This document shows positions 22,934-34,747 of a stretch of 64,000 bases of DNA, in pieces. The notes under the pieces were generated by a model. It saw only the letters and a list, made by a program, of their open reading frames with translations, was not told the DNA's origin and ran no database searches. The DNA lies in assembly GCA_016786615.1 (NCBI GenBank), contig JAEUVX010000009.1, forward strand, positions 124,001 through 188,000, written 5' to 3'. Source of the DNA: Flavipsychrobacter sp. (GTDB taxonomy: Bacteria > Bacteroidota > Bacteroidia > Chitinophagales > Chitinophagaceae). Within the stretch, counting starts at the first letter, position 1, and each line of letters begins with the position of its first letter. The position numbers and the translations under genes are program-made.

Positions 22934-22983
22934 GGCTACTATTGGCTAATAACAATCATCTGCAGAGCTGATATTCGTCATAT

Positions 22984-23012
22984 TTTGAGAGGGTGGTATC
23001 CTGATACTTTTG
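22984..23012 (+). promoter_or_regulatory. Promoter of the persulfide dioxygenase-rhodanese gene
   Basis: TTTG at 22984-22987, a 17-nt spacer and TACTTTTG at 23005-23012 match the -33/-7 pattern. It lies 20 nt before the ATG at 23033, which supports that start over the upstream in-frame ATG at 22919. Confidence 0.6.
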
Positions 23013-23032: not shown

Positions 23033-24451
23033 ATGAAAATCGAACAGATATATACAGGTTGCCTTGCTCAGGGGGCATATTATATAACATCAGGCAATGA
23101 AGCTGTAATAATAGACCCGCTGCGCGAAATACAACCCTATATTGACAGGGCGAGGAAAGACGGCGTAACCATTAAGTATGTATTTGAAACACATTTTCAT
23201 GCAGATTTTGTGTCGGGGCATTTAGATATTGCGAAAGCTACAGGTGCTACTATCGTGTACGGGCCAACTGCACAACCGTCTTTTGATGCTTATGTGGCCA
23301 AAGACGGAGAGTTGTTTATTGTAGGTGATATTGCATTTAAGGTATTGCACACACCGGGTCATACTATGGAAAGCTGCTGCTATCTGTTGAAAGATGAAAC
23401 AGGTAAGGATGTTGCATTATTTTCGGGAGATACTTTGTTTCTGGGAGATGTAGGCAGGCCGGATCTTGCTCAAAAAGCTGCTAACATGACAATGGAACAG
23501 CTGGCAGGATTGCTTTATACATCGCTGAGAACCCAAATAATGCCATTAAATGATGATATCATAGTTTATCCTGCACATGGTGCGGGCAGCGCATGTGGCA
23601 AAAATATGAGCAGCGATACACAAGATACATTAGGCCATCAGAAGGCAACCAATTATGCACTGCGTGCAGATATGACTGCAGAAGAATTTGTAAAAGAAGT
23701 AACTACCGGGTTGATGACTCCGCCGCAATATTTTCCATACAATGTGATGATGAATAAAACGGGCTACAATAGTATTACGGATGTTTTGCAACAAGGTACC
23801 CGAGCTTTGTCAGTAGCAGCTTTTGAAGCTGCACAGGCTGAAACGGAAGCATTGATACTGGACACAAGGAGTGAAACTGAATTTGTAAACGGTTTTATTC
23901 CCGGTTCAATTAATATAGGTTTGAATGGCAGCTTTGCACCATGGGCAGGGGCTTTAATTACCGATATAAAACACCCGATAATTTTTATTGCAGACGAAGG
24001 GAAAGAACAGGAAGTGGTGACAAGGCTGGCAAGGGTTGGTTATGACAACTGTATAGGATACCTGCAAGGAGGAGTTGAAGCATGGAAGGCAGCAGGTAAA
24101 GAACTGCACACGATATCATCAATTACTGCAGATGAGTTGGCAGATGCACTGGAACAACATCCAACCATAATGCTGCTGGATGTAAGAAAGAAAAGCGAAT
24201 ACGACGCAGAGCATATTATTGGTGCTGAAAACCTGCCGCTTGATAATATAAACTCGGAAATGAGCCGAGTTGACAGGGATACTACCTATTATGTACATTG
24301 CGCAGGGGGCTACCGGTCTGTAATATTTATATCAATTATGATGGCAAGGGGCTACAAAAATCTGGTAAATGTAAAAAGCGGTTTTAAGGCGTTAAAAGAG
24401 TGTAACAGGTTCAATATCAGCAAGTATCACGCGCCGATTACCATGTTATAA
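23033..24451 (+). CDS. CstB-like persulfide dioxygenase with two rhodanese domains, 472 aa
   Basis: An N-terminal metallo-beta-lactamase domain of the ETHE1 type (about 1-250) carries THFHADFVSGH near residue 53, HTPGHTMES, SGDTLFLGDVGRPDL and PAHGAGSACG near 179. These blocks match the CstB group, which oxidises thiol persulfides and sulfide-derived sulfur. Two rhodanese domains follow. The first (about 285-365) has no Cys in its loop (IADEGKEQE) and is probably inactive. The second (about 375-455) has the Cys loop CAGGYRS near 422. It is cytoplasmic and single-gene, and lies just upstream of the Crp/Fnr gene. A role in sulfide detoxification is likely but inferred. Confidence 0.88.
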   Translation: MKIEQIYTGCLAQGAYYITSGNEAVIIDPLREIQPYIDRARKDGVTIKYVFETHFHADFVSGHLDIAKATGATIVYGPTAQPSFDAYVAKDGELFIVGDIAFKVLHTPGHTMESCCYLLKDETGKDVALFSGDTLFLGDVGRPDLAQKAANMTMEQLAGLLYTSLRTQIMPLNDDIIVYPAHGAGSACGKNMSSDTQDTLGHQKATNYALRADMTAEEFVKEVTTGLMTPPQYFPYNVMMNKTGYNSITDVLQQGTRALSVAAFEAAQAETEALILDTRSETEFVNGFIPGSINIGLNGSFAPWAGALITDIKHPIIFIADEGKEQEVVTRLARVGYDNCIGYLQGGVEAWKAAGKELHTISSITADELADALEQHPTIMLLDVRKKSEYDAEHIIGAENLPLDNINSEMSRVDRDTTYYVHCAGGYRSVIFISIMMARGYKNLVNVKSGFKALKECNRFNISKYHAPITML

Positions 24452-24472: not shown

Positions 24473-24510
24473 TTATGTCTTATAAAGTTTTTTAACTTTG
24501 TAAGACATAA
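24473..24510. promoter_or_regulatory. 17-bp inverted repeat overlapping the Crp/Fnr gene promoter
   Basis: Arms 24473-24489 and 24494-24510 are complementary over 17 bp with one mismatch (a G-U pair in RNA) and a 4-nt TTTT spacer. The right arm contains TAACTTTG (24493-24500), an exact -7 box for the gene starting at 24522. It may be an operator for autoregulation or a weak AT-rich terminator of the upstream gene. Confidence 0.6.
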
Positions 24511-24521
24511 CTATACCTACA

Positions 24522-25241
24522 TTGGCTGATAAGTTAAAAAGTGGTTTTAGCGCAGAATGCGAAAATTGTGGTGCTCGCCACAAATCAATTTTCTGCCATT
24601 TAGAGATGGAGGAGCTGGCTCTTTTTAATGATAGCAAATCCTGCATGTCATTTAAGAAAGGGCAAATCATTTTTAATGAAGGTGGCCACCCGTTGGGTAT
24701 ATTCTGTGTAAACAGTGGAAAGGTAAAGCTCTCTCATAGCGGGCAAGACGGCAAAGAGCAGATAATACACATGGGTAAAGAGGGCGATGTATTAGGTTAC
24801 AGGGCCTTATTGAGTTCTGAAAGGTATAATGCTACAGCCGTAGCACTGGATGATACAAATATTTGTTTTGTACCACGTGATACTTTTTTTCAAGTACTTA
24901 AGTCCAGCCACGGACTTTCTTTAGAAATCATAAAACTATTGGCAAGTGAGCTTCGCAGGGCAGTAAACACCATTACAGACCTTGCACAAAAACCGGTACG
25001 CGAACGTACCGCGGAAGCTTTGTTATTCCTGAAAGAAACTTATGGTTTTGAAGAAGACGGCGCTACTATTAATGTAGTGTTGAGCAGAGAAGATATTGCG
25101 AATCTTGTAGGTACTGCTACAGAAACAGCTATCCGCCTTTTGTCTGAATTCAAAAATGATAAAATTGTTGAATTCATCGGGAAGAAAATCAAGATTCTTG
25201 ATATGGCCAAACTGGTGAAAACAGCTAACATACTTTATTAA
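24522..25241 (+). CDS. Crp/Fnr-family transcriptional regulator with N-terminal cysteine motif, 239 aa
   Basis: The layout is a cyclic-nucleotide-binding-like beta-roll at about 35-155 and a winged helix at about 165-235 with LSREDIANLVGTATETAIRL as the recognition region. The first 45 residues contain Cys13, Cys16, Cys25 and Cys41 (ECENCG then SIFCH). This is like, but not identical to, the Fe-S ligand set of FNR. The start codon is TTG at 24522; no in-frame ATG lies upstream, and starting at the next ATG would remove three of these cysteines. Position directly ahead of the cbb3 oxidase genes fits an oxygen or redox sensor controlling them. Iron-sulfur binding is inferred. Confidence 0.85.
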   Translation: MADKLKSGFSAECENCGARHKSIFCHLEMEELALFNDSKSCMSFKKGQIIFNEGGHPLGIFCVNSGKVKLSHSGQDGKEQIIHMGKEGDVLGYRALLSSERYNATAVALDDTNICFVPRDTFFQVLKSSHGLSLEIIKLLASELRRAVNTITDLAQKPVRERTAEALLFLKETYGFEEDGATINVVLSREDIANLVGTATETAIRLLSEFKNDKIVEFIGKKIKILDMAKLVKTANILY

Positions 25242-25251
25242 TTCTACTCCC

Positions 25252-25277
25252 GAAAACATGACAAAAATCATGTTTTC
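25252..25277. promoter_or_regulatory. Inverted repeat, candidate Crp/Fnr operator, copy 1
   Basis: GAAAACATGA (25252-25261), a 6-nt spacer CAAAAA and TCATGTTTTC (25268-25277) form a perfect 10-bp inverted repeat. Its centre is 51.5 bp before a near-match -7 box at 25316. A copy with the same core and the same distance precedes ccoS. Confidence 0.7.
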
Positions 25278-25315
25278 ATACAGCTACTATCATATTCTAA
25301 GCATTGGTACCATTT

Positions 25316-25323
25316 TACCTTCG
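25316..25323 (+). promoter_or_regulatory. Candidate -7 box of the cco cluster (first unit)
   Basis: TACCTTCG differs from TAnnTTTG at one position and ends 14 nt before the ATG at 25338. No TTG is present at the -33 position, consistent with activator dependence. Confidence 0.45.
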
Positions 25324-25337
25324 TAGAAAGGTGAACC

Positions 25338-25889
25338 ATGGCTAAGATTTTGTTTTCTGAATACCGGCACAATGACTTGAAAAGTCTTGTGAATAAGTTG
25401 AACGTTGACTATTACAGCGTGTTGGCTGGTATGTGCAATACTGCAACAACGCTTGTAGAAGGCCTGGAGCAACAAGAGCCTAATCAGTCAACGGTATTGT
25501 ACATGAGCCTCAGTAAGAAATTACTGGAGCAAGTGAAAGATCTCATCACACTACGAACCGAAATGTTACTGCCATACGCTGTGGAATTGCATACTAAAGA
25601 GGTGGAAGGGCACGATTGCAGTACATGCGAAGGTGGGTGTAGTTTCAAGCATTCTACACAGTTGATAGGTTTGAAAGAGTCTCACCAGAAAATAAAGGAA
25701 ATTCTGTACAGGCTGCAAATGGTGGCTTTGCCACTATATACGGAAATGGAATACCCGACTGAGTATAAGGTGTTGCGAAATGAAATGATGCTGATAGATA
25801 CAGCACTTACAGAATTGTTTTACATCGAAGAGGCAAGCCTGATACCAAAGATAATGGAAGCCCAAAAGAATATTCATGCCTACAACTGA
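25338..25889 (+). CDS. Unknown helical protein with CxxCxxxC motif, in the cbb3 locus, 183 aa
   Basis: The protein appears all-helical and cytoplasmic. Cys94, Cys97 and Cys101 sit in HDCSTCEGGC, next to His92. Parts resemble hemerythrin-like domains: LRTEMLLPYAVEL, LKESHQKIKEIL and FYIEEASLIPKIM recall the helix endings of the ScdA/RIC group, but the iron-binding His and Glu are mostly not at the canonical positions. I therefore call it possibly a degenerate hemerythrin fold, not a confirmed one. It overlaps ccoI by 14 nt, so the two are coupled. GAAAGGTG gives a ribosome-binding site. A role in oxygen, NO or metal handling for oxidase assembly is a guess from context. Confidence 0.6.
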   Translation: MAKILFSEYRHNDLKSLVNKLNVDYYSVLAGMCNTATTLVEGLEQQEPNQSTVLYMSLSKKLLEQVKDLITLRTEMLLPYAVELHTKEVEGHDCSTCEGGCSFKHSTQLIGLKESHQKIKEILYRLQMVALPLYTEMEYPTEYKVLRNEMMLIDTALTELFYIEEASLIPKIMEAQKNIHAYN

Positions 25890-28326
25890 GCAAGAACGCA
25901 GCACGATTATTATAAATAAACCTGTTAAGCATGCGGCAACAAGGTGTTACCACTGCGGTACAGATTGCATAACAAACAGCATCGCAATAGAAGAAAAGGT
26001 TTTTTGTTGCGAGGGCTGCAAGCTTGTGTATGAAATACTAAATGAAAACGGGCTGTGCGATTACTATAAATTACAATCTCATCCGGGGCTCGCACAAATA
26101 AAACCTGCACGAAACGATAAGTTTTCTTACCTGGATAATGAAGATATAGCCAATCGCTTGTACAAGTTTACGGACGGTAATAATACCATGGTGACGTTTT
26201 ACATACCGGGTGTACACTGTGCATCGTGTATGTGGTTGCTGGAGCATATGAATAAGCTGGATGCAGGTATAACCGAGAGCAGGCTGAATTTTACAAGCAA
26301 GGAAGTAACCATCCGGTTTCAACAAGAAAAAATAAGTATTCGTAAAATTGTAGAACTGCTTACTACCATAGGTTACGAACCATACATCAGCCTGGATGAT
26401 GCAGAGCAGAAGAAAACAAGAAACTACAATAAACAGCTGATATACAAACTGGGTGTTGCAGGTTTTTGCTTTGGTAATATTATGCTGATGAGCTTCCCGG
26501 AATATTTATCGTTTGATAGGGGTATTGAACATGAATATGCTTTTTTATTCAGGATATTAAACCTCGTCTTGGCACTGCCGGTTTTCTTTTATAGCGCATC
26601 AGAATTCTTCAGCTCTGCATGGGCGGGGCTCAAGCAAAAAATATTGAATATAGATGCGCCGATAGTGCTGGCACTAATTATAACTTTTGCACGCAGCGTG
26701 TACGAAATTGCTACCAATACCGGAAGCGGATACCTTGATAGCATGAGTGGTATTGTGTTTTTTATGCTGGTAGGCAGGGTAGTGCAGGAACGTACGTATA
26801 AATCGATATCATTTCACAGAGATTATAAGTCATACTTCCCTATTGCAGTAAATGTTGTGACAAAGGATGGTACCGTATCTAAAAACCTGCAAGACCTGCA
26901 AGAGAAAGATATTGTAGAGCTGCACAATGATGAAATAATACCGGCAGATGCCATAGTGCTGAAAGGAAATGCACGCATTGATTATAGTTTTGTGACTGGA
27001 GAGAGTGAACCTGTAATGATAGAAACAGGCAAGCAGGTTTATGCAGGTGGTAAACAAACAGGAGAGAAAATAACTATACAGATTATTAAACCGGTAGCAG
27101 GCAGCTACCTGACATCGCTGTGGAATCATCACTCATTTACTAAAAATAAAATTGAAAAGAATAACCGCGATAGTATCATACACGTAATGAGTAAGTATTT
27201 TACTATTGTCCTGTTTATACTCGCTGCAGCTACTGCCGTCTTTTGGTGGATGAATGACCCTTCGAAAATTTTGCCAAGTGTATCGGCAATGTTAATAGTC
27301 GCTTGCCCTTGTGCATTATTGCTGGCAGCCACATATACTAATGGTAACCTGCTGCGTTTGCTGAGTAATAACGGACTGTATCTGCGCGATGCTACTGTGA
27401 TAGAACAGGTGGGTGATATAAACCATATTGTATTTGACAAGACGGGTACGCTGACACAGGGAGCCAAACAATTCAGAACAACCGGACACCAGCTTACAGA
27501 AACAGAAAAATCGTGGGTTTATAATATTGCATCACATAGCAAACACCCATATAGTAAAGCGCTGGTATCGTATCTGGGTGTTTACCCGCTTACTACATCA
27601 GAAAAATGGCAGGAACATACGGGTAAGGGATTGTATGCTGAATTGGCAGGTAATGTAATAAAAATAGGCTCTGCAGCATTTACCGGTGTTGAAACTGAGA
27701 ACGATAATAATAAACCGGCATTATACATCCAGATTAATGATAAGATTACAGCATTCTATATTACTACCGAATTCCGGGACGATATTCCTCAAATAATACC
27801 TGTATTAAGAGATAGTTACGAATTATCACTATTGTCGGGCGATAATGACAGGCAACGTGAGCGCCTGCAGGGTTTATTTGGTACGAGCAGCAAACTCCTG
27901 TTTGCACAAAAGCCGATTGACAAACTGCAATACATTGAAAACCTTCAGAAGAATAGTAAAAAAGTATTGATGATGGGTGATGGGCTTAATGATGCCGGTG
28001 CCTTGCAACAAAGTAATGTAGGCATTACCCTTGCGGATGATATCAATAACTTTACACCATCCTGCGATGCGATTCTGGATGCTAAAAAGTTTGGGAAATT
28101 CCCTTCCTTACTGAAGTTGGCACATGCAGGGCGTTACATTATTTACTTCAGTTTTGTTATTTCTGTTCTATACAACATAGTCGGGCTTAGCATATCTATG
28201 CAGGGTAAAATGAGCCCTATGATAGCAGCAATTCTAATGCCCCTCAGCACATTGAGTATTGTGTTGATAACTACGGGTTTAGGAAGCTTGGTAGCAAAGC
28301 GTTTACACCTCTCTATAAAAGCATAA
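25876..28326 (+). CDS. ccoI: Copper-type P1B ATPase CcoI/FixI for cbb3 oxidase assembly
   Basis: An inner-membrane ATPase that moves copper for the cbb3 active site. A Cys-rich N-terminal region (CYHCGTDC near 24-31 and CCEGCKLVYE near 45-54) precedes a heavy-metal-associated domain with GVHCASCMW near 113-119. Membrane helices follow, then the CPC ion channel (ACPCALLLA near 477), DKTGTLTQG with the phosphorylated Asp near 522, and GDGLNDAGAL near 700. The 816-aa length fits the Bacteroidota CcoI form with the extra zinc-ribbon-like N terminus. Neighbours ccoS, ccoN and ccoG support the assignment. Confidence 0.94.
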   Translation: MPTTEQERSTIIINKPVKHAATRCYHCGTDCITNSIAIEEKVFCCEGCKLVYEILNENGLCDYYKLQSHPGLAQIKPARNDKFSYLDNEDIANRLYKFTDGNNTMVTFYIPGVHCASCMWLLEHMNKLDAGITESRLNFTSKEVTIRFQQEKISIRKIVELLTTIGYEPYISLDDAEQKKTRNYNKQLIYKLGVAGFCFGNIMLMSFPEYLSFDRGIEHEYAFLFRILNLVLALPVFFYSASEFFSSAWAGLKQKILNIDAPIVLALIITFARSVYEIATNTGSGYLDSMSGIVFFMLVGRVVQERTYKSISFHRDYKSYFPIAVNVVTKDGTVSKNLQDLQEKDIVELHNDEIIPADAIVLKGNARIDYSFVTGESEPVMIETGKQVYAGGKQTGEKITIQIIKPVAGSYLTSLWNHHSFTKNKIEKNNRDSIIHVMSKYFTIVLFILAAATAVFWWMNDPSKILPSVSAMLIVACPCALLLAATYTNGNLLRLLSNNGLYLRDATVIEQVGDINHIVFDKTGTLTQGAKQFRTTGHQLTETEKSWVYNIASHSKHPYSKALVSYLGVYPLTTSEKWQEHTGKGLYAELAGNVIKIGSAAFTGVETENDNNKPALYIQINDKITAFYITTEFRDDIPQIIPVLRDSYELSLLSGDNDRQRERLQGLFGTSSKLLFAQKPIDKLQYIENLQKNSKKVLMMGDGLNDAGALQQSNVGITLADDINNFTPSCDAILDAKKFGKFPSLLKLAHAGRYIIYFSFVISVLYNIVGLSISMQGKMSPMIAAILMPLSTLSIVLITTGLGSLVAKRLHLSIKA

Positions 28327-28338
28327 TACTATCTCTGA

Positions 28339-28366
28339 CAAAAACATGACAACAATCATGTTTTTG
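28339..28366. promoter_or_regulatory. Inverted repeat, candidate Crp/Fnr operator, copy 2
   Basis: CAAAAACATGA (28339-28349), spacer CAACAA and TCATGTTTTTG (28356-28366) form a perfect 11-bp inverted repeat. Its core, AAAACATGA-N6-TCATGTTTT, is the same as that of the copy at 25252. The centre is 51.5 bp before the -7 box TAGTTTTG at 28404, exactly as in copy 1. Confidence 0.72.
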
Positions 28367-28403
28367 CGTGAGCGTTATCATAGCATACCGCATGGTGTGG
28401 TGG

Positions 28404-28411
28404 TAGTTTTG
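28404..28411 (+). promoter_or_regulatory. Candidate -7 box of the ccoS-ccoNOQP unit
   Basis: TAGTTTTG matches TAnnTTTG exactly and ends 24 nt before the ccoS ATG at 28436. No -33 TTG is visible, so activation from the upstream inverted repeat is plausible. Confidence 0.55.
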
Positions 28412-28435: not shown

Positions 28436-28594
28436 ATGAGTGCACTTTATGTTCTGGTTCTGGCAAGTATTACAGTTGCTGCCTTTTTTCTATTAGCATT
28501 TATATGGAGCGTACGTTCCAACCAATATGAGGATAAACAAGGTGCTGCCATGCGAATGCTGCATGATGATGAAGTAAATACAATCAACCAATAA
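28436..28594 (+). CDS. ccoS: cbb3 oxidase assembly protein CcoS, 52 aa
   Basis: A single-helix membrane protein: MSALYVLVLASITVAAFFLL, then AFIWSVRSNQYEDKQGA, the typical CcoS ending in which Gln-Tyr-Asp/Glu-Asp follows the helix. CcoS is needed for cofactor insertion into cbb3 oxidase. The start at 28436 is preferred over an upstream in-frame ATG at 28346, because that codon lies inside the inverted repeat and upstream of the -7 box. ccoNO follows after 26 nt. Confidence 0.88.
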   Translation: MSALYVLVLASITVAAFFLLAFIWSVRSNQYEDKQGAAMRMLHDDEVNTINQ

Positions 28595-28620: not shown

Positions 28621-30762
28621 ATGAGTAACACACTGCAAACTGACAAATTCTTTTACGATAATAAAATCGTAAAATGGTTTGCTTACGCTACAATCCTTTG
28701 GGGGCTGGTGGGCATGCTGGTAGGTGTGCTGGCGGCATTCCAGTTAGTCTTCCCGATTCTTAACTTTAATACAGCCGAAACAACCTTCGGACGTGTAAGG
28801 CCTGTACACACCAATGCGGTGATTTTCGCATTTGTGGGTAATGGTATTTTCATGGGTGTTTATTATTCGCTGCAAAGGCTGTTGAAAGCCCGTATGTTCA
28901 GTGATTTTCTGAGTAAACTCCACTTCTGGGGCTGGCAGCTCATTATCGTATTGGCAGCGGTATCTCTGCTTGCAGGTTACACTACCGGTAAAGAATATGC
29001 AGAACTTGAATGGCCGATTGATATCCTGATTACCCTGATTTGGGTAGTATTCGGTGTCAATATGTTCGGTACCATCATCAAACGCCGCGAACGTCACTTG
29101 TATGTTGCTATCTGGTTTTATATCGCAACATTCGTAACCGTTGCAATGCTGCATATTGTTAACTCTTGGGAAATACCTTTCAGCGCATTTAAATCTTACT
29201 CCTGGTATGCAGGTGTGCAGGATGCATTGGTACAATGGTGGTACGGGCACAACGCGGTAGCGTTCTTCCTTACTACACCTTATCTGGGTATCATGTATTA
29301 CTTCCTGCCAAAGATTGCCAACCGTCCTGTTTACTCCTACAGGCTTTCAATTATACACTTCTGGGCACTGATATTCATTTATATATGGGCAGGCCCTCAC
29401 CATTTATTATATACTGCATTGCCTGACTGGGCACAGTCACTCGGTGTTGTGTTTTCTGTAATGCTGATTGCTCCATCTTGGGGTGGTATGCTGAATGGTT
29501 TACTGACACTGCGTGGTGCATGGGATAAAGTACGTGAAGATGTAGTGTTGAAATTCCTTGTGGTTGCTGTTACCGCATACGGTATGGCAACTTTTGAAGG
29601 CCCGATGCTGAGCTTGAAAAATGTAAATGCAATCAGCCACTTTACAGACTGGACTATTGCACACGTACACGTAGGTGCATTGGGTTGGAACGGCTTCCTG
29701 ACATTCGGTGTACTGTACTGGTTGATACCAAGAATATTCAAAACAAACCTGTATTCTCAGAAAATGGCTAACTGGCACTTCTGGATAGGTACATTGGGTA
29801 TAGTATTCTATGCTGTTCCTATGTATTGGGCAGGTTTCATGCAAAGCCTTGCGTGGAAAGAGTTTACACCTGAAGGCCAATTGAAATACCAATTCATGGA
29901 AACGGTTACACAAATGCGTCCTTTCTTCATGATGCGTGGTATTGGTGGTACACTGTATCTGGTTGGTGCTATTATGATGACTTACAACCTGATTAAAACA
30001 GTACGCCTAGGTAAAGCAGAAAATGATGAAGCAGCAGAAGCAGCACCATTGGCAAAAGAGTATGTAGAACATGGCAGCAGCCACTGGCACCGCTGGATAG
30101 AACGCCGTCCTGTACAATTAATGGTTTTGAGCTTAGTGGTAGTAGCATTAGGCGGCCTGATTGAAATTGTACCAACGTTCATGATTAAATCGAACATCCC
30201 AACTATCACAAGTGTGAAACCATATACTCCGCTTGAGTTGCAGGGACGTGATATATACGTACGTGAGGGTTGCTACACTTGTCACAGCCAGATGGTTCGT
30301 CCGTTCCGTAGCGAGGTAGCCCGTTATGGCGAATACTCAAAAGCAGGTGAATTTATTTACGATCACCCATTCCAATGGGGTAGTAAACGTACCGGCCCCG
30401 ATTTGGCACGTGTAGGTGGTAAATATCCTGACAGCTGGCACTTCAACCATATGTACGAACCATCAAGCATGTCTCCGGGTTCTATTATGCCGGCCTATGT
30501 TTGGTTGTTTGAAAAAGACATCGACACTGCTATTACTCCTGCAAAAATCAGGGCTATGCAAACACTGGGAGTGCCATATGAAGAAGGCTACGACCGGAAA
30601 GCAAATGCAGACCTGATGACACAGGCTGAAAAGATAAAAGGCAGCCTTGCTAAGGATAATATACAGGTGAAGAGCAGTAAAGAAATCGTGGCATTGATAG
30701 CTTATCTGCAACGTATAGGTACAGACATCAAGCTGGAACAGAAAACAGCAACGATCAATTAA
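28621..30762 (+). CDS. ccoNO: Fused cbb3 cytochrome oxidase subunits I and II (CcoN-CcoO)
   Basis: Terminal oxidase reducing oxygen to water with high affinity and pumping protons across the inner membrane. Residues 1 to about 480 are the CcoN heme-copper core with about 12 helices. It has histidine-bearing segments such as RPVHTNAVIF, WWYGHNAVAFFL, GPHHLLYT and IAHVHVGALGWN. After a linker (EYVEHGSSHWHRWIERRPVQ) a helix and a CcoO c-type cytochrome domain follow, with CYTCHSQMVRPF near 551. This fusion is a known Bacteroidota arrangement. The 713-aa length agrees with it. It lies between ccoS and the short ccoQ. Confidence 0.95.
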   Translation: MSNTLQTDKFFYDNKIVKWFAYATILWGLVGMLVGVLAAFQLVFPILNFNTAETTFGRVRPVHTNAVIFAFVGNGIFMGVYYSLQRLLKARMFSDFLSKLHFWGWQLIIVLAAVSLLAGYTTGKEYAELEWPIDILITLIWVVFGVNMFGTIIKRRERHLYVAIWFYIATFVTVAMLHIVNSWEIPFSAFKSYSWYAGVQDALVQWWYGHNAVAFFLTTPYLGIMYYFLPKIANRPVYSYRLSIIHFWALIFIYIWAGPHHLLYTALPDWAQSLGVVFSVMLIAPSWGGMLNGLLTLRGAWDKVREDVVLKFLVVAVTAYGMATFEGPMLSLKNVNAISHFTDWTIAHVHVGALGWNGFLTFGVLYWLIPRIFKTNLYSQKMANWHFWIGTLGIVFYAVPMYWAGFMQSLAWKEFTPEGQLKYQFMETVTQMRPFFMMRGIGGTLYLVGAIMMTYNLIKTVRLGKAENDEAAEAAPLAKEYVEHGSSHWHRWIERRPVQLMVLSLVVVALGGLIEIVPTFMIKSNIPTITSVKPYTPLELQGRDIYVREGCYTCHSQMVRPFRSEVARYGEYSKAGEFIYDHPFQWGSKRTGPDLARVGGKYPDSWHFNHMYEPSSMSPGSIMPAYVWLFEKDIDTAITPAKIRAMQTLGVPYEEGYDRKANADLMTQAEKIKGSLAKDNIQVKSSKEIVALIAYLQRIGTDIKLEQKTATIN

Positions 30763-30966: not shown

Positions 30967-30985
30967 AATTATAAAACGCACAATC

Positions 30986-32140
30986 ATGCGCATACGTTTT
31001 AATAAATATGTATCCCTCGCAATGCTTGCATTACTGGCACCTGCAATGGTACAGGCTGCAGATGCTGCTACCGCCCCCGCAGGGAACAAATTCAACGCCA
31101 TACTAATAGGTTTGGTAAGCCTTACATTGATATTGCTTTTCGCAGTACTGGTGTTGGGCAATACGCTCAGGCAACTGGGGTATGTATATCGTGATAAAAT
31201 GCGTGCTGAGCGTAAAGGAGGACTTGTGAAATCTGTCGCACTATTGATTGGCCTCGGGCTGACATCAATCGCAGCGAATGCGGAGGAAGCAGCAGCGGTA
31301 TCGTCAGCACCTGCATATATCAGTGGGATACCTGCATCCGATTTTTACACATTAATGGGTATCATTGCGTTGGAGTTATTGGTAATAATATCAATGGTGT
31401 TCCTTATCCGCACTATGGTACGCCTAATAAGTGCCGACCCTGAGAAAGCAGCAGTAGCTGAAAAAGTAGTGAAAGTAAATTTCTGGGACAGGTTCAATAA
31501 AGTAGTGCCGATAGAGAAAGAAGCAGACATCATGCTAGACCATGACTACGATGGCATTAAAGAACTGGACAACAGTTTGCCTCCATGGTGGAAGTATGGT
31601 TTCTATCTCACAATCGTAACAGGTGTAATATACCTTTGGTATTATCACGCAGGTGGCAATGGACCTAGTTCTTATGATGAATTTGTAGCGGAAGTACAGG
31701 CAGGTGAAGAAGCAAAAGCTGCATACCTTGCAAAGAGTGCGAATAACGTAGACGAGAATACAGTAAAAATGCTGGATGCTGCCGGTATAGCTGCCGGTGG
31801 TGTATTGTTTGAGCAAATGTGTGCTGCTTGCCATGCTAAAGATGGTGGTGGCGGTGTAGGTCCAAACCTTTGTGATGAATATTGGCTGCATGGTGGCAGT
31901 GTACAGGATATTTTCAAAACCATTAAATATGGCTGGCCTGATAAGGGTATGAAGAGCTGGAAGGACGATTACTCTCCGAACCAGATTGCACAGATAACCA
32001 GTTATGTGAAATCATTGCAAGGAAGTAAACCCGCAGCACCAAAAGACAAACAAGGAGAATTGTTTATAGAAGGTGGTGCAGCACCAGCAGACTCTGCCTC
32101 GACGGTGGCAGATACGGCAAAGGCTGTAGCAATGAAATAG
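30986..32140 (+). CDS. ccoP: cbb3 oxidase diheme-type subunit CcoP, single-heme form
   Basis: Start at 30986 gives a signal-like first helix (MRIRFNKYVSLAMLALLAP). Further helices lie at about 35-55, 115-140 and 205-225. The WWKYGFYLTIVTGVIYLW segment is the characteristic CcoP helix. The C-terminal cytochrome c domain has one heme site, CAACH near 279, with a Met ligand in GMKSW or a nearby Met. Typical proteobacterial CcoP has two CxxCH motifs; only one is present here, as known in Bacteroidota. The N-terminal part appears to include an extra membrane segment, so it is longer than a simple CcoP. An upstream in-frame ATG at 30824 lies inside ccoQ and is rejected. Confidence 0.92.
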   Translation: MRIRFNKYVSLAMLALLAPAMVQAADAATAPAGNKFNAILIGLVSLTLILLFAVLVLGNTLRQLGYVYRDKMRAERKGGLVKSVALLIGLGLTSIAANAEEAAAVSSAPAYISGIPASDFYTLMGIIALELLVIISMVFLIRTMVRLISADPEKAAVAEKVVKVNFWDRFNKVVPIEKEADIMLDHDYDGIKELDNSLPPWWKYGFYLTIVTGVIYLWYYHAGGNGPSSYDEFVAEVQAGEEAKAAYLAKSANNVDENTVKMLDAAGIAAGGVLFEQMCAACHAKDGGGGVGPNLCDEYWLHGGSVQDIFKTIKYGWPDKGMKSWKDDYSPNQIAQITSYVKSLQGSKPAAPKDKQGELFIEGGAAPADSASTVADTAKAVAMK

Positions 32141-32167: not shown

Positions 32168-33574
32168 ATGAGTGGCAGTAATGTGGAAGGTGGCTCGTTC
32201 AGAGATAAAGTAGCTACGGTAGATAAACAGGGTAAACGGATATGGATATTTCCGCAAAAACCTAAAGGTAAATTGTACAATGCGCGTACGTTGCTCAGTG
32301 TGTTTTACCTGTTAGTGCTTTTCATGCTTCCGTTTATTAAATACAAAGGGCATCCTTTATTTCTTATTAATATCCTTGAAAGAAAATTTATCCTGTTTGG
32401 CCAGATATTCTGGCCACAGGATTTTTTCATTTTCGGATTGGGGATGGTCATATTTATCATCTTTATCGCCCTGTTTACTGTAGTATTCGGCCGCATATTC
32501 TGCGGATGGGTTTGCCCGCAAACAATATTTATGGAACTCGTTTTCCGTAAAATAGAATACTGGATAGAAGGCGATGCAGCAGAACAACGCATACTGAAAA
32601 AACAAGCATGGAACGGCGATAAGATTTTCAAAAGAGTGATGAAGTGGACGGTGTTTTGGGCCATCAGTTTTTTGATTGCAAATACTTTTCTTGCATATAT
32701 TATCGGCATTGATGAATTACGCACTATTGTATCGGAACCTGTAAGTAAACACTTTGGCGGGTTTGTAGCCATAGTAATATTTACAACAGTGTTCTTTTTC
32801 GTTTTCTCGTGGATGCGCGAGCAGGTGTGTACGGTCGTTTGTCCGTATGGACGTATGCAAGGTGTGTTGCTTGATAAAAACTCTATTGTAGTCACCTATG
32901 ACCATGTGAGAGGTGAACCGCGGGGTAAGTATAAGAAGAATGAAGACCGTTCTCTGGGTGATTGTATTGACTGTAATCAGTGTGTGAAAGTATGCCCTAC
33001 AGGTATTGATATTCGCCACGGTACACAGTTGGAATGTACTAACTGTACAGCATGTATAGATGCGTGTGACAAGATGATGGATGCTGTTAATCTTCCTACA
33101 GGATTGATACGCTATGCTTCAGAAAACAATATCTCTCAGAAACAGCCGTACAGGTTTACTGGCAGGATGAAAGCATATACTGCTGTAATGCTGTTGCTAC
33201 TGGCAGTAGAAGTGTTCTTATTGACAAGCCGAACAGATGTAGGGATAACAATACTCCGTACACCCGGTCAGTTATACCAGGAGCAGCCAAATAATCAATT
33301 CAGTAATTTATACAATTACAAATTCCTGAATAAAACATACCAGAATAAGGTTTTGGAATTGAAACCTGAAGATTTCAATGGCACTATAAAACTTGTAGGG
33401 GAAGAACAACTGAAAGTGCCCAAAGAAAGTGCAGCATCAGGTTCTATGTTCATCTACATTGATAAAAAAGATATCAACCAAAGGAAAACAAAACTGAAAA
33501 TAGGTGTGTATGAAAATGGCAAAAAAATCAGCACAATCAATACATCATTTTTAGGACCATTCGGCGCTAACTAA
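32168..33574 (+). CDS. ccoG: cbb3 oxidase accessory ferredoxin-like membrane protein CcoG
   Basis: Polytopic protein that carries two 4Fe-4S clusters and helps reduce copper for the oxidase. Helices appear at about 40-60, 85-110, 160-185, 200-220 and 340-360. The Cys motifs CGWVCPQTIFMELVFRKIEYW, CTVVCPYGRMQG, CIDCNQCVKVCPTGIDIR near 265 and CTNCTACIDACD are all intact. A C-terminal periplasmic domain (FixG C-terminal, Ig-like) completes the 468 residues. It starts 27 nt after ccoP and ends 11 nt before the fixH gene. Confidence 0.94.
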   Translation: MSGSNVEGGSFRDKVATVDKQGKRIWIFPQKPKGKLYNARTLLSVFYLLVLFMLPFIKYKGHPLFLINILERKFILFGQIFWPQDFFIFGLGMVIFIIFIALFTVVFGRIFCGWVCPQTIFMELVFRKIEYWIEGDAAEQRILKKQAWNGDKIFKRVMKWTVFWAISFLIANTFLAYIIGIDELRTIVSEPVSKHFGGFVAIVIFTTVFFFVFSWMREQVCTVVCPYGRMQGVLLDKNSIVVTYDHVRGEPRGKYKKNEDRSLGDCIDCNQCVKVCPTGIDIRHGTQLECTNCTACIDACDKMMDAVNLPTGLIRYASENNISQKQPYRFTGRMKAYTAVMLLLLAVEVFLLTSRTDVGITILRTPGQLYQEQPNNQFSNLYNYKFLNKTYQNKVLELKPEDFNGTIKLVGEEQLKVPKESAASGSMFIYIDKKDINQRKTKLKIGVYENGKKISTINTSFLGPFGAN

Positions 33575-33585
33575 AACATAATCAA

Positions 33586-34035
33586 ATGAGTACAATTAAA
33601 ATAAATTGGGGGGCAAAAATAGCACTGTTATACGGCGGCTTTGTAGCACTGATAGTAATACTGGTGGCAGGTAGTATGCGACAGGATTTTGACCTGGTAG
33701 CCCCCGATTATTATAGTCAGGAAATAAAATATCAACAGGTGATAGATGCCGGTAAAAATCAGTCAGAGTTATCTGCGCCGGTTTCAGTATCTGCTAATGA
33801 AACTACAGTCAGCATAGATTTTCCGACGGAGTTTACAAATAAGGCAATAAGCGGAACGGTACAGTTTTATTCACCGGTTAATTCAGCCTGGGATAAGACA
33901 GTGAAAATAAATACTGCTGATAACAGCATGACAGTACCCAGAAGTGAGTTACAAGCAACAACTTATACTATCAAAATGAACTGGGAATCTGATGGTAAAA
34001 AATACTACCAGGAAACGTCGTTAAAACTTCGCTGA
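33586..34035 (+). CDS. ccoH: FixH/CcoH-like cbb3 assembly protein, 149 aa
   Basis: One N-terminal membrane helix (about residues 9-29, IALLYGGFVALIVILVAGSM) is followed by FDLVAPDYYSQEIKYQQVID, the FixH hallmark with the DYY segment, and a periplasmic beta domain. FixH/CcoH is needed for a stable cbb3 oxidase. The 149-aa length and the position between ccoG and the SafE-like gene are typical. It ends one base before the next start, so the genes are coupled. Confidence 0.88.
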   Translation: MSTIKINWGAKIALLYGGFVALIVILVAGSMRQDFDLVAPDYYSQEIKYQQVIDAGKNQSELSAPVSVSANETTVSIDFPTEFTNKAISGTVQFYSPVNSAWDKTVKINTADNSMTVPRSELQATTYTIKMNWESDGKKYYQETSLKLR

Positions 34036-34036
34036 G

Positions 34037-34747
34037 ATGAGCACTTTCACACTTTCTATGGCATTGCTTATGGGGCTGACAGGCAGCCTGCATTGTGCGG
34101 GTATGTGTGGCCCCATTGTATGGGTAATGCCATTTGGCATGATGAGCGGGTTTAAAAAGTGGTTGGGAATAGCTCTGTATCATATTGCACGCATAAGCGT
34201 ATACGCCGGTATGGCATTGGTGCTACATTCTTTCAAAAATCTGTTTCAGCCTCAGTGGCAGCAGTATGTATCTATAGCCTTAGGGCTGATATTACTGATA
34301 ACTGGCTTTATTTCTTTTATACCCAACAACAAAATAAAAGTATCGTTGCCATGGGCAGGCTTTGTAAAAACCCGGCTTGGCAAGTTTATAGGTAATCCTT
34401 CTTTGTTCAGTCTTACAATGGCAGGTTTGCTGAATGGTTTGTTGCCTTGTGGTTTGGAGTATATGGCATTATCATCTACCGTAACTGCACCAACACCTGC
34501 AGAAGCGGCCGTTCTAATGTACGCGTTTGGGCTCGGTACGGTACCGATGATGGTTGGGATTACAATATTGAAAAACAAAGCAGGATTTCTGCGGTTCAAT
34601 CATGTACGCAAACTGGTGCCTGTAATGATGTTTGTATTCGGTGCACTTTTTGTGGTACGTGGCATGAACCTCGGCATACCATATCTAAGCCCAAAAGTGG
34701 AGATAGAACAAAATGAAATAAAAGCAAGCTGCTGCCATAAAAAATGA
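34037..34747 (+). CDS. SafE/TauE-type membrane protein of the cbb3 cluster, 236 aa
   Basis: A six-helix protein of the sulfite exporter TauE/SafE or DsbD-like group (also annotated as urease accessory protein UreH domain). The N-terminal GLTGSLHCAGMCGP and the central GLLNGLLPCGLEY are the conserved Cys-Gly blocks, suggesting copper or disulfide transport in oxidase maturation. The C terminus has CCHKK, a possible metal-binding tail. It is the last clearly cbb3-linked gene of the operon, followed after 7 nt by a membrane protein of unknown function. The transported substrate is inferred only from context. Confidence 0.86.
   Translation: MSTFTLSMALLMGLTGSLHCAGMCGPIVWVMPFGMMSGFKKWLGIALYHIARISVYAGMALVLHSFKNLFQPQWQQYVSIALGLILLITGFISFIPNNKIKVSLPWAGFVKTRLGKFIGNPSLFSLTMAGLLNGLLPCGLEYMALSSTVTAPTPAEAAVLMYAFGLGTVPMMVGITILKNKAGFLRFNHVRKLVPVMMFVFGALFVVRGMNLGIPYLSPKVEIEQNEIKASCCHKK

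Follow-up and report, generated by a model that had tools for sequence, protein, structure and literature searches.

Paired FNR-type dyads at a fixed distance from the -7 boxes of two cbb3 oxidase promoters: a candidate tandem operator in Flavipsychrobacter sp. and its relatives

The cbb3 oxidase genes of Flavipsychrobacter sp. studied here lie in a stretch of 64,000 nucleotides (the window; GenBank assembly GCA_016786615.1, contig JAEUVX010000009.1, positions 124,001 to 188,000 of the forward strand), next to a gene of the Crp/Fnr family and behind two promoters, each with an inverted repeat upstream of a -7 box. Results of our analysis indicate that each of these palindromes forms the outer half of a tandem, as a second dyad, TGA-N6-TCA, lies 22 bp downstream of it and 29.5 bp before the box. 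Judging from these sequence features, the palindromes are probably the upstream halves of tandem FNR-type operators, which would form cooperative two-dimer promoters activated at low oxygen. The genes for the MBL-rhodanese protein, the FNR-like regulator, the product of the 25338 gene, ccoI, ccoS, ccoNO, ccoP, ccoG, ccoH and the DsbD-like protein are all carried by the plus strand, and the regulator, the oxidase genes and their promoter elements are arranged as follows.

24522 to 25241, plus strand: gene of the FNR-like regulator, 239 amino acids, cNMP-type fold and Crp helix-turn-helix (PF00027, PF13545, alignment, NCBIfam)
25252 to 25277, no strand: distal dyad of promoter 1, GAAAACATGA-N6-TCATGTTTTC, predicted centre -63.5, conserved in relatives
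25281 to 25292, no strand: proximal dyad of promoter 1, degenerate CAG-CTACTA-TCA with 3/6 core bases, predicted centre -41.5
25316 to 25323, plus strand: -7 box of promoter 1, TACCTTCG, one mismatch to TAnnTTTG, predicted start about 25328
25338 to 25889, plus strand: gene of unknown function; predicted four-helix, RIC/YtfE-like protein with the Cys/His motif C94, C97, C101, H105
25876 to 28326, plus strand: ccoI-type copper P-type ATPase gene (Pfam)
28339 to 28366, no strand: distal dyad of promoter 2, CAAAAACATGA-N6-TCATGTTTTTG, predicted centre -63.5
28369 to 28380, no strand: proximal dyad of promoter 2, TGA-GCGTTA-TCA, 6/6, exactly 22 bp downstream, predicted centre -41.5
28404 to 28411, plus strand: -7 box of promoter 2, TAGTTTTG, exact, predicted start about 28416
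28436 to 28594, plus strand: ccoS (PF03597, TIGR00847)
28621 to 30762, plus strand: fused ccoNO (Pfam and NCBIfam profiles)
30983 to 32140, plus strand: ccoP (FixP_N), the start codon being our choice
32168 to 34747, plus strand: ccoG, ccoH and a gene for a DsbD-like membrane protein (PF13386) (Pfam)

The two inverted repeats, their common core, their equal distance from the -7 boxes and the lack of a -33 TTG had been pointed out in a sequence-only reading of this DNA, and direct inspection of the sequence agrees with it on all these points. The exact shared core, AAAACATGA-N6-TCATGTTTT, occupies positions 25253-25276 and 28341-28364, and the palindrome centres, 25264.5 and 28352.5, each precede the first base of the box by 51.5 bp, the box at 25316 having one mismatch and that at 28404 being exact. 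Neither promoter has a TTG near -33, the lone TTG at 25304-25306 being too near the box. Dinucleotide shuffles of the window (n=100) gave on average 0.13 core matches at up to three mismatches, with two matches in 1/100, and these two sites are the sole occurrences of the 22-bp core at 0-1 mismatch in the organism's own genome (2.96 Mb, 91% complete). At two mismatches there is no enrichment in this genome, either for the 22-bp core (6 sites vs. 5 for the backward control) or for the looser palindrome AAYATGAYNNNNRTCATRTT (34 vs. 39). The extended palindrome was for this reason dropped as a regulon finder, and the search was moved to the combination of a dyad and a -7 box.

The inner dyad is perfect before ccoS (6/6) and weak before the 25338 gene (3/6 core bases). 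Its conservation was assessed in a gapless alignment of the window and fetched relatives (23 ccoS rows and 24 crp-downstream rows), set in register on the outer dyad. The outer dyad was picked by score, and the dyad at +22 and the box played no part in the picking; because of this selection, the outer dyad's own 6/6 is not counted as evidence. At least 5/6 of the core bases are present at +22 in 20 of the 23 ccoS rows (15/18 without rows at least 85% identical); the other offsets between 10 and 49 each show such a match in at most one row. The corresponding count for the crp-downstream rows is 14/24 (9/18 after the removal of near-identical rows), and the inner dyad of promoter 1 is 6/6 in 14/24 of these rows. 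A -7 box (TAnnTTTG or TAnnTTGY, with at least 5/6 matching bases) has its first base at +51.5 in 20/23 ccoS rows and 22/24 crp-downstream rows, 12 of the latter 24 having the variant TAnnTTGC. Thus, the sites are present and unmoved in close relatives, with the box conserved at +51.5, and the absence or displacement that the sequence-only reading named as grounds for its refutation is not observed.

The arrangement recurs well beyond the window. A scan for the module (dyad-N10-dyad-N23-box, at most one mismatch) gave matches in 297/396 genomes of the order and in 54/395 genomes of a draw from the phylum, two sets that overlap, and the backward control gave one match in each case. When exact matches were sought in 147 family genomes with a free gap of 0-30 between the dyads, 91 genomes had a match, and N10 accounted for 137 of 150 places among the matches listed, N11 for five and N9 for two. 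With a free gap of 7-37 between a single dyad and the box, 62 places were found in three genomes, 20 with a gap of 22 and five with a gap of 23, and in the own genome the gap is 22 or 23 at 11 of 15 places. Single dyads at one mismatch add up to 253 in nine genomes, compared with 86 for the control.

The region upstream of ccoN was also scored in an even draw of 60 genomes of the order, of which 36 encode ccoNO at E 1e-100 or better and 35, excluding the own genome, were scored in a 510-bp segment covering the ccoN start and the region before it, with a maximum of 18 points. At least 16 points were reached in 21/35 genomes, all 21 with the full outer dyad, vs. 0/700 block shuffles, and at least 15 points in 25/35 genomes vs. 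1/700 simple block shuffles. Two of the drawn genomes (G053 and G037) are also alignment rows, and many were also included in the order-wide module scan.

These data bear on two simpler explanations of the palindromes. Their location 10 and 12 nucleotides after stop codons and the predicted RNA hairpins of -11.2 and -14.6 kcal/mol, which beat 200/200 and 199/200 shuffles, are what could be expected of transcription terminators after crp and ccoI, but the stem is A+T-rich, no U tract follows it, and dyads of the same core are found before genes elsewhere. Moreover, the distance from the upstream stop codon to the site varies from -19 to 1103 bp in the ccoS rows and from 9 to 63 bp in the crp rows, while the box stays at +51.5. 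Termination was therefore rejected as the main explanation, and we find it most improbable.

The same constancy of the box distance speaks against a second possibility, namely, class I activation from the outer palindrome alone, with the inner dyad a chance occurrence or a relic. The palindromes are indeed the strongest sites, and the inner dyad of promoter 1 is degenerate in the window. However, the inner dyad in the window's ccoS promoter is 6/6 and conserved at exactly +22, so the single upstream site of a class I promoter is not what is found there. The predominance of N10 when the gap was free, as well as the preference of own-genome single dyads for the inner position, makes the lone class I site very unlikely. 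In Flavobacterium psychrophilum, the TAnnTTTG box is located at -12 to -5, and the TAnnTTGY variant at the same place (available part of PMC9723704). Carried over from that map, the transcription starts would lie near 25328 and 28416 and the dyads at -63.5 and -41.5; in relatives, the inner dyad keeps a constant distance of 29.5 bp to the -7 box downstream of it, and the value of -41.5 rests on the start-site position of another species. The predicted layout is that of a class II site with an adjacent upstream dimer, and the lone class I site at -61.5 proposed in the sequence-only reading gives way to a second dyad at the predicted -41.5, with the palindromes at -63.5.

The MBL-rhodanese gene of the window is preceded by a third promoter of the same type (22969-23012), with 5/6 core bases in the outer dyad and 6/6 in the inner one.

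22947 to 22958, no strand: distal dyad of the MBL-rhodanese promoter, TAA-TAACAA-TCA, 5/6
22969 to 22980, no strand: proximal dyad of the MBL-rhodanese promoter, TGA-TATTCG-TCA, 6/6, 30.5 bp before the box
23005 to 23012, plus strand: -7 box of the MBL-rhodanese gene, TACTTTTG, start codon at 23033

By eye, the MBL-rhodanese promoter is similar in two of the fetched loci (L053 and L060), and the inner dyad and box are retained in two others (L061 and L062).

In the own genome, 24 loci with a dyad-box pair at 0-1 mismatch, two of which coincide, were inspected, and at 18 of them an open frame begins 7-47 nucleotides after the box. The targets, as judged by eye, include two MBL-rhodanese genes, a norC-like cytochrome gene, a fasciclin-like gene and genes for a cytochrome c, a catalase-peroxidase and metabolic functions; the fasciclin-like target clusters with norB-like, NnrS-like and RIC genes (RIC by Pfam). 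The joint control of cbb3 assembly and structural genes that the sequence-only reading had proposed is supported, but its restriction to two sites is not, as the MBL-rhodanese gene follows a comparable layout and the norC-like and other genes of the own genome have single class II-type sites upstream. One cluster of the own genome (L083:4446-7376), comprising norCB-like, hemerythrin-like, fasciclin, Rrf2-type, NnrS-like and RIC genes, has two dyad-box pairs, one before norC and one before the fasciclin gene. A cluster of rhodanese and thioredoxin genes, assigned by eye (L085:1000-3061, contig C15), has a dyad-box pair with a gap of 23 before one of the thioredoxin genes.

At the tandem loci fetched from the order and phylum scans, an open frame is present downstream in 59/60 cases and starts within 29 nucleotides in 37. 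Pfam analysis of 30 tandem-downstream proteins revealed five universal stress proteins, RIC, the anaerobic ribonucleotide reductase NrdD, a cytochrome c, YceI, a radical SAM protein resembling HemN, two pyridoxamine-oxidase-like proteins and a ccoI-like ATPase, and further such proteins resemble ccoI and ccoN by eye. In part, these targets match an oxygen regulon.

The protein encoded at 24522-25241 has a cNMP-binding-type domain (PF00027, 2.2e-22) and a Crp helix-turn-helix (PF13545, 3.5e-16), and its nearest solved structure by sequence is 2gau. In an alignment of this protein, C13, C16, C25 and C115 are at positions like those of the cluster ligands of Escherichia coli FNR (three N-terminal cysteines and a central one), with a differing spacing, an extra cysteine is present at position 41, and the recognition helix, TETAIRLL, retains the Glu and Arg of the E..SR pattern of FNR, with Ser replaced by Ile. 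The best NCBIfam models are Fnr and FnrL, both below the cut-off; since the protein scores 90 bits against the curated Fnr model NF008365, the cut-off of which is 228, we call it FNR-like and not Fnr. It is the sole close family member among three matches in the own genome, the other two being distant, and its gene adjoins ccoI in 25/48 fetched loci (two genomes counted twice). The module is present in 25/29 genomes with a Crp/Fnr relative at E <1e-20 and in 0/9 without one, these 38 genomes being those common to the regulator search and the module scan (21 of the 59 regulator-search genomes are left out) and the threshold having been chosen after the data were seen. With conserved TGA-N6-TCA operators and a neighbouring FNR-like protein with four cysteines, the candidacy of the adjacent Crp/Fnr gene put forward in the sequence-only reading holds, and the control of both promoters by this protein is, on sequence grounds, plausible.

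Neither inspection by eye nor the class II pattern revealed a matching module ahead of the regulator gene in the window, which gives no sign of autoregulation. Directly before this gene, an inverted repeat, ATGTCTTATAAAG...CTTTGTAAGACAT (24475-24508), overlaps a TAACTTTG box (24493-24500) and may be an operator or a terminator; a related repeat, CTTGTAAA...TTTACAAG, was noticed by eye in L053. A specificity switch, in which the recognition helix would covary with the base before TGA, was considered and dropped, as A and C both occur within the halves of one site and the helix is nearly invariant.

Several observations weigh against a tandem operator served by this protein. The inner dyad of promoter 1 has only 3/6 core bases in the window. 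In 9/35 of the drawn genomes with ccoNO, the region upstream of ccoN scores at the level of chance (10-11), and in one more at 14. No Pfam family was found for 10/30 of the proteins encoded downstream, and some others, such as PaaB and a glyoxalase, are not obvious oxygen targets. In the regulator itself, Ile occupies, according to the alignment, the place of the FNR recognition serine, and the third cysteine (C25) is missing in relatives such as those in L056 and L066. In roughly half of the fetched loci, the regulator gene has no cbb3 genes as neighbours; contig ends cut some of these loci, and four of them are at 57-60% identity (L064, L065, L067 and L068). The association of the module with Crp/Fnr relatives (25/29 vs. 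0/9) is confounded by phylogeny and by incomplete genomes. Genome G026 (72% complete, best E 1.8e-4, left out of that comparison) has two exact module places, and G019 has eight, its best relative of the 24522 protein being 32% identical. The idea of an exclusive link between the module and the FNR-like protein was abandoned, as genomes without a close orthologue carry the module too. The presence of the module in G019 implies that other family members bind there, and other members of the Crp/Fnr family probably use the same layout.

It may be asked whether the two dyads of one promoter serve separate regulators, for instance, the FNR-like protein and another Crp-family protein. The flanks of the dyads differ in many rows (AACATGA vs. 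TTGAG), and two genomes without a close orthologue, G002 and G008, encode a receiver domain-Crp fusion beside a PAS histidine kinase (the receiver was assigned by Pfam in G002 and by eye in G008). On the other hand, just one of the three family matches in the own genome is close, the TGA-N6-TCA core is common to both dyads, and ATGA types occur at the inner position too, so that we regard two separate regulators as quite unlikely. In a genome of the same genus (L036:134-2115), a PAS histidine kinase gene adjoins a receiver-cNMP-Crp fusion gene; the best match there to the 24522 protein is only 37% identical.

In the mechanism that we consider probable, the tandem would be bound by a single protein. 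At low oxygen, the 24522-25241 protein, carrying an iron-sulphur cluster, would dimerise, and the first dimer would occupy the strong distal palindrome at about -63.5. Its presence would then assist the binding of another dimer to the weaker dyad at -41.5, two helical turns (22 bp) further downstream. This inner dimer would act as a class II activator, rather than a repressor, of the sigma-A polymerase, substituting for the missing -33 element beside TAnnTTTG, while the outer dimer would contribute cooperativity and probably touch the alpha C-terminal domain. As a result, the unit of the 25338 gene and ccoI and the unit of ccoS and ccoNOPGH would be switched on together.

A serious rival of this mechanism assumes that the outer dimer limits expression at full anoxia, giving a band-pass promoter active at intermediate oxygen. 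Upstream FNR limits expression at some E. coli promoters, cbb3 oxidases function at micro-oxic levels, and a dimer at -63.5 fills the docking place of the alpha C-terminal domain beside a class II activator. In Rhizobium, FnrN is described with a pair of boxes, one of them activating and the other repressing (PMC7888657, in the part of the paper drawn on here). However, the module also precedes an NrdD gene (L224), which is expected to be on under anoxia, and the outer site, being the better match, should fill first, opposite to what late repression requires. We consider the band-pass promoter unlikely.

The product of the 25338 gene, located between the regulator and ccoI, has the conserved motif C94-x2-C97-x3-C101-x3-H105 and is predicted to be a four-helix protein resembling YtfE/RIC. 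It matches no Pfam family up to E 1, and thus not the hemerythrin family PF01814, and its profile matches no RIC protein directly. It differs from the YtfE/RIC di-iron repair proteins in the lack of a Pfam hemerythrin match and in having its own Cys/His set. In another Chitinophagaceae genome (L041), a syntenic open reading frame retains a hemerythrin signature.

More tentatively, and with less confidence than in the mechanism itself, the 22-bp tandem could be regarded as a promoter grammar of Bacteroidia, in which two touching CRP/FNR dimers would form a cooperative tetrameric switch shared by different family members. Its users would be the cysteine-bearing FNR-like protein here and other Crp-family proteins elsewhere, perhaps of the receiver-Crp type, and the outer dimer would sit where the alpha C-terminal domain normally docks. 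Such a grammar would outlive its regulator, because different family members would use the same layout. A rigid module of dyads 22 bp apart, 29.5 bp before TAnnTTTG, would make low-oxygen regulons readable from sequence in hundreds of genomes, and it raises the question of how the polymerase is contacted when a second dimer fills the usual docking place of the alpha subunit. To our knowledge, few oxygen-control operators have been described in Bacteroidetes, and a search of openly licensed papers found no report of this layout or of an FNR operator in Chitinophagales.

Among the closest known systems is that of E. coli, where Barnard, Green and Busby reportedly described in 2003 class II promoters of FNR and tandem-bound FNR. 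The likeness consists of an FNR-type dyad at the predicted -41.5 with a second FNR-type dyad upstream, while the single fixed 22-bp spacing, the order-wide recurrence and the Bacteroidetes -7 promoter distinguish the promoters described here. The core also differs, being (A/C)TGA-N6-TCA(T/G) here and TTGAT-N4-ATCAA for E. coli FNR. In rhizobia, FixK/FnrN control fixNOQP and fixGHIS through anaeroboxes, and the available part of the source (PMC7888657) indicates, as here, Crp/Fnr-family boxes at one promoter-near position before cbb3 structural and assembly operons; in contrast to the tandem pair, the operons it lists have a single activating anaerobox. In Herbaspirillum, Fnr1 and Fnr3 control fixNOP; fnr1 is near fixNOP, much as the regulator gene lies near the cbb3 genes here, and its promoter has a class II site centred at -42, comparable with the predicted -41.5 of the inner dyad. 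The Herbaspirillum system is, however, proteobacterial, and heterodimers (or sequential homodimers) on one site, not adjacent dyads, are proposed for it (both statements after the available part of PMC5934665). A term search of the main text of the promoter map of F. psychrophilum finds neither Fnr nor Crp, while the accessible part of the same source reports that the cbb3 oxidase is strongly up-regulated at oxygen limitation, and the TAnnTTTG box with its TAnnTTGY variant is common to that species and the promoters described here (PMC9723704).

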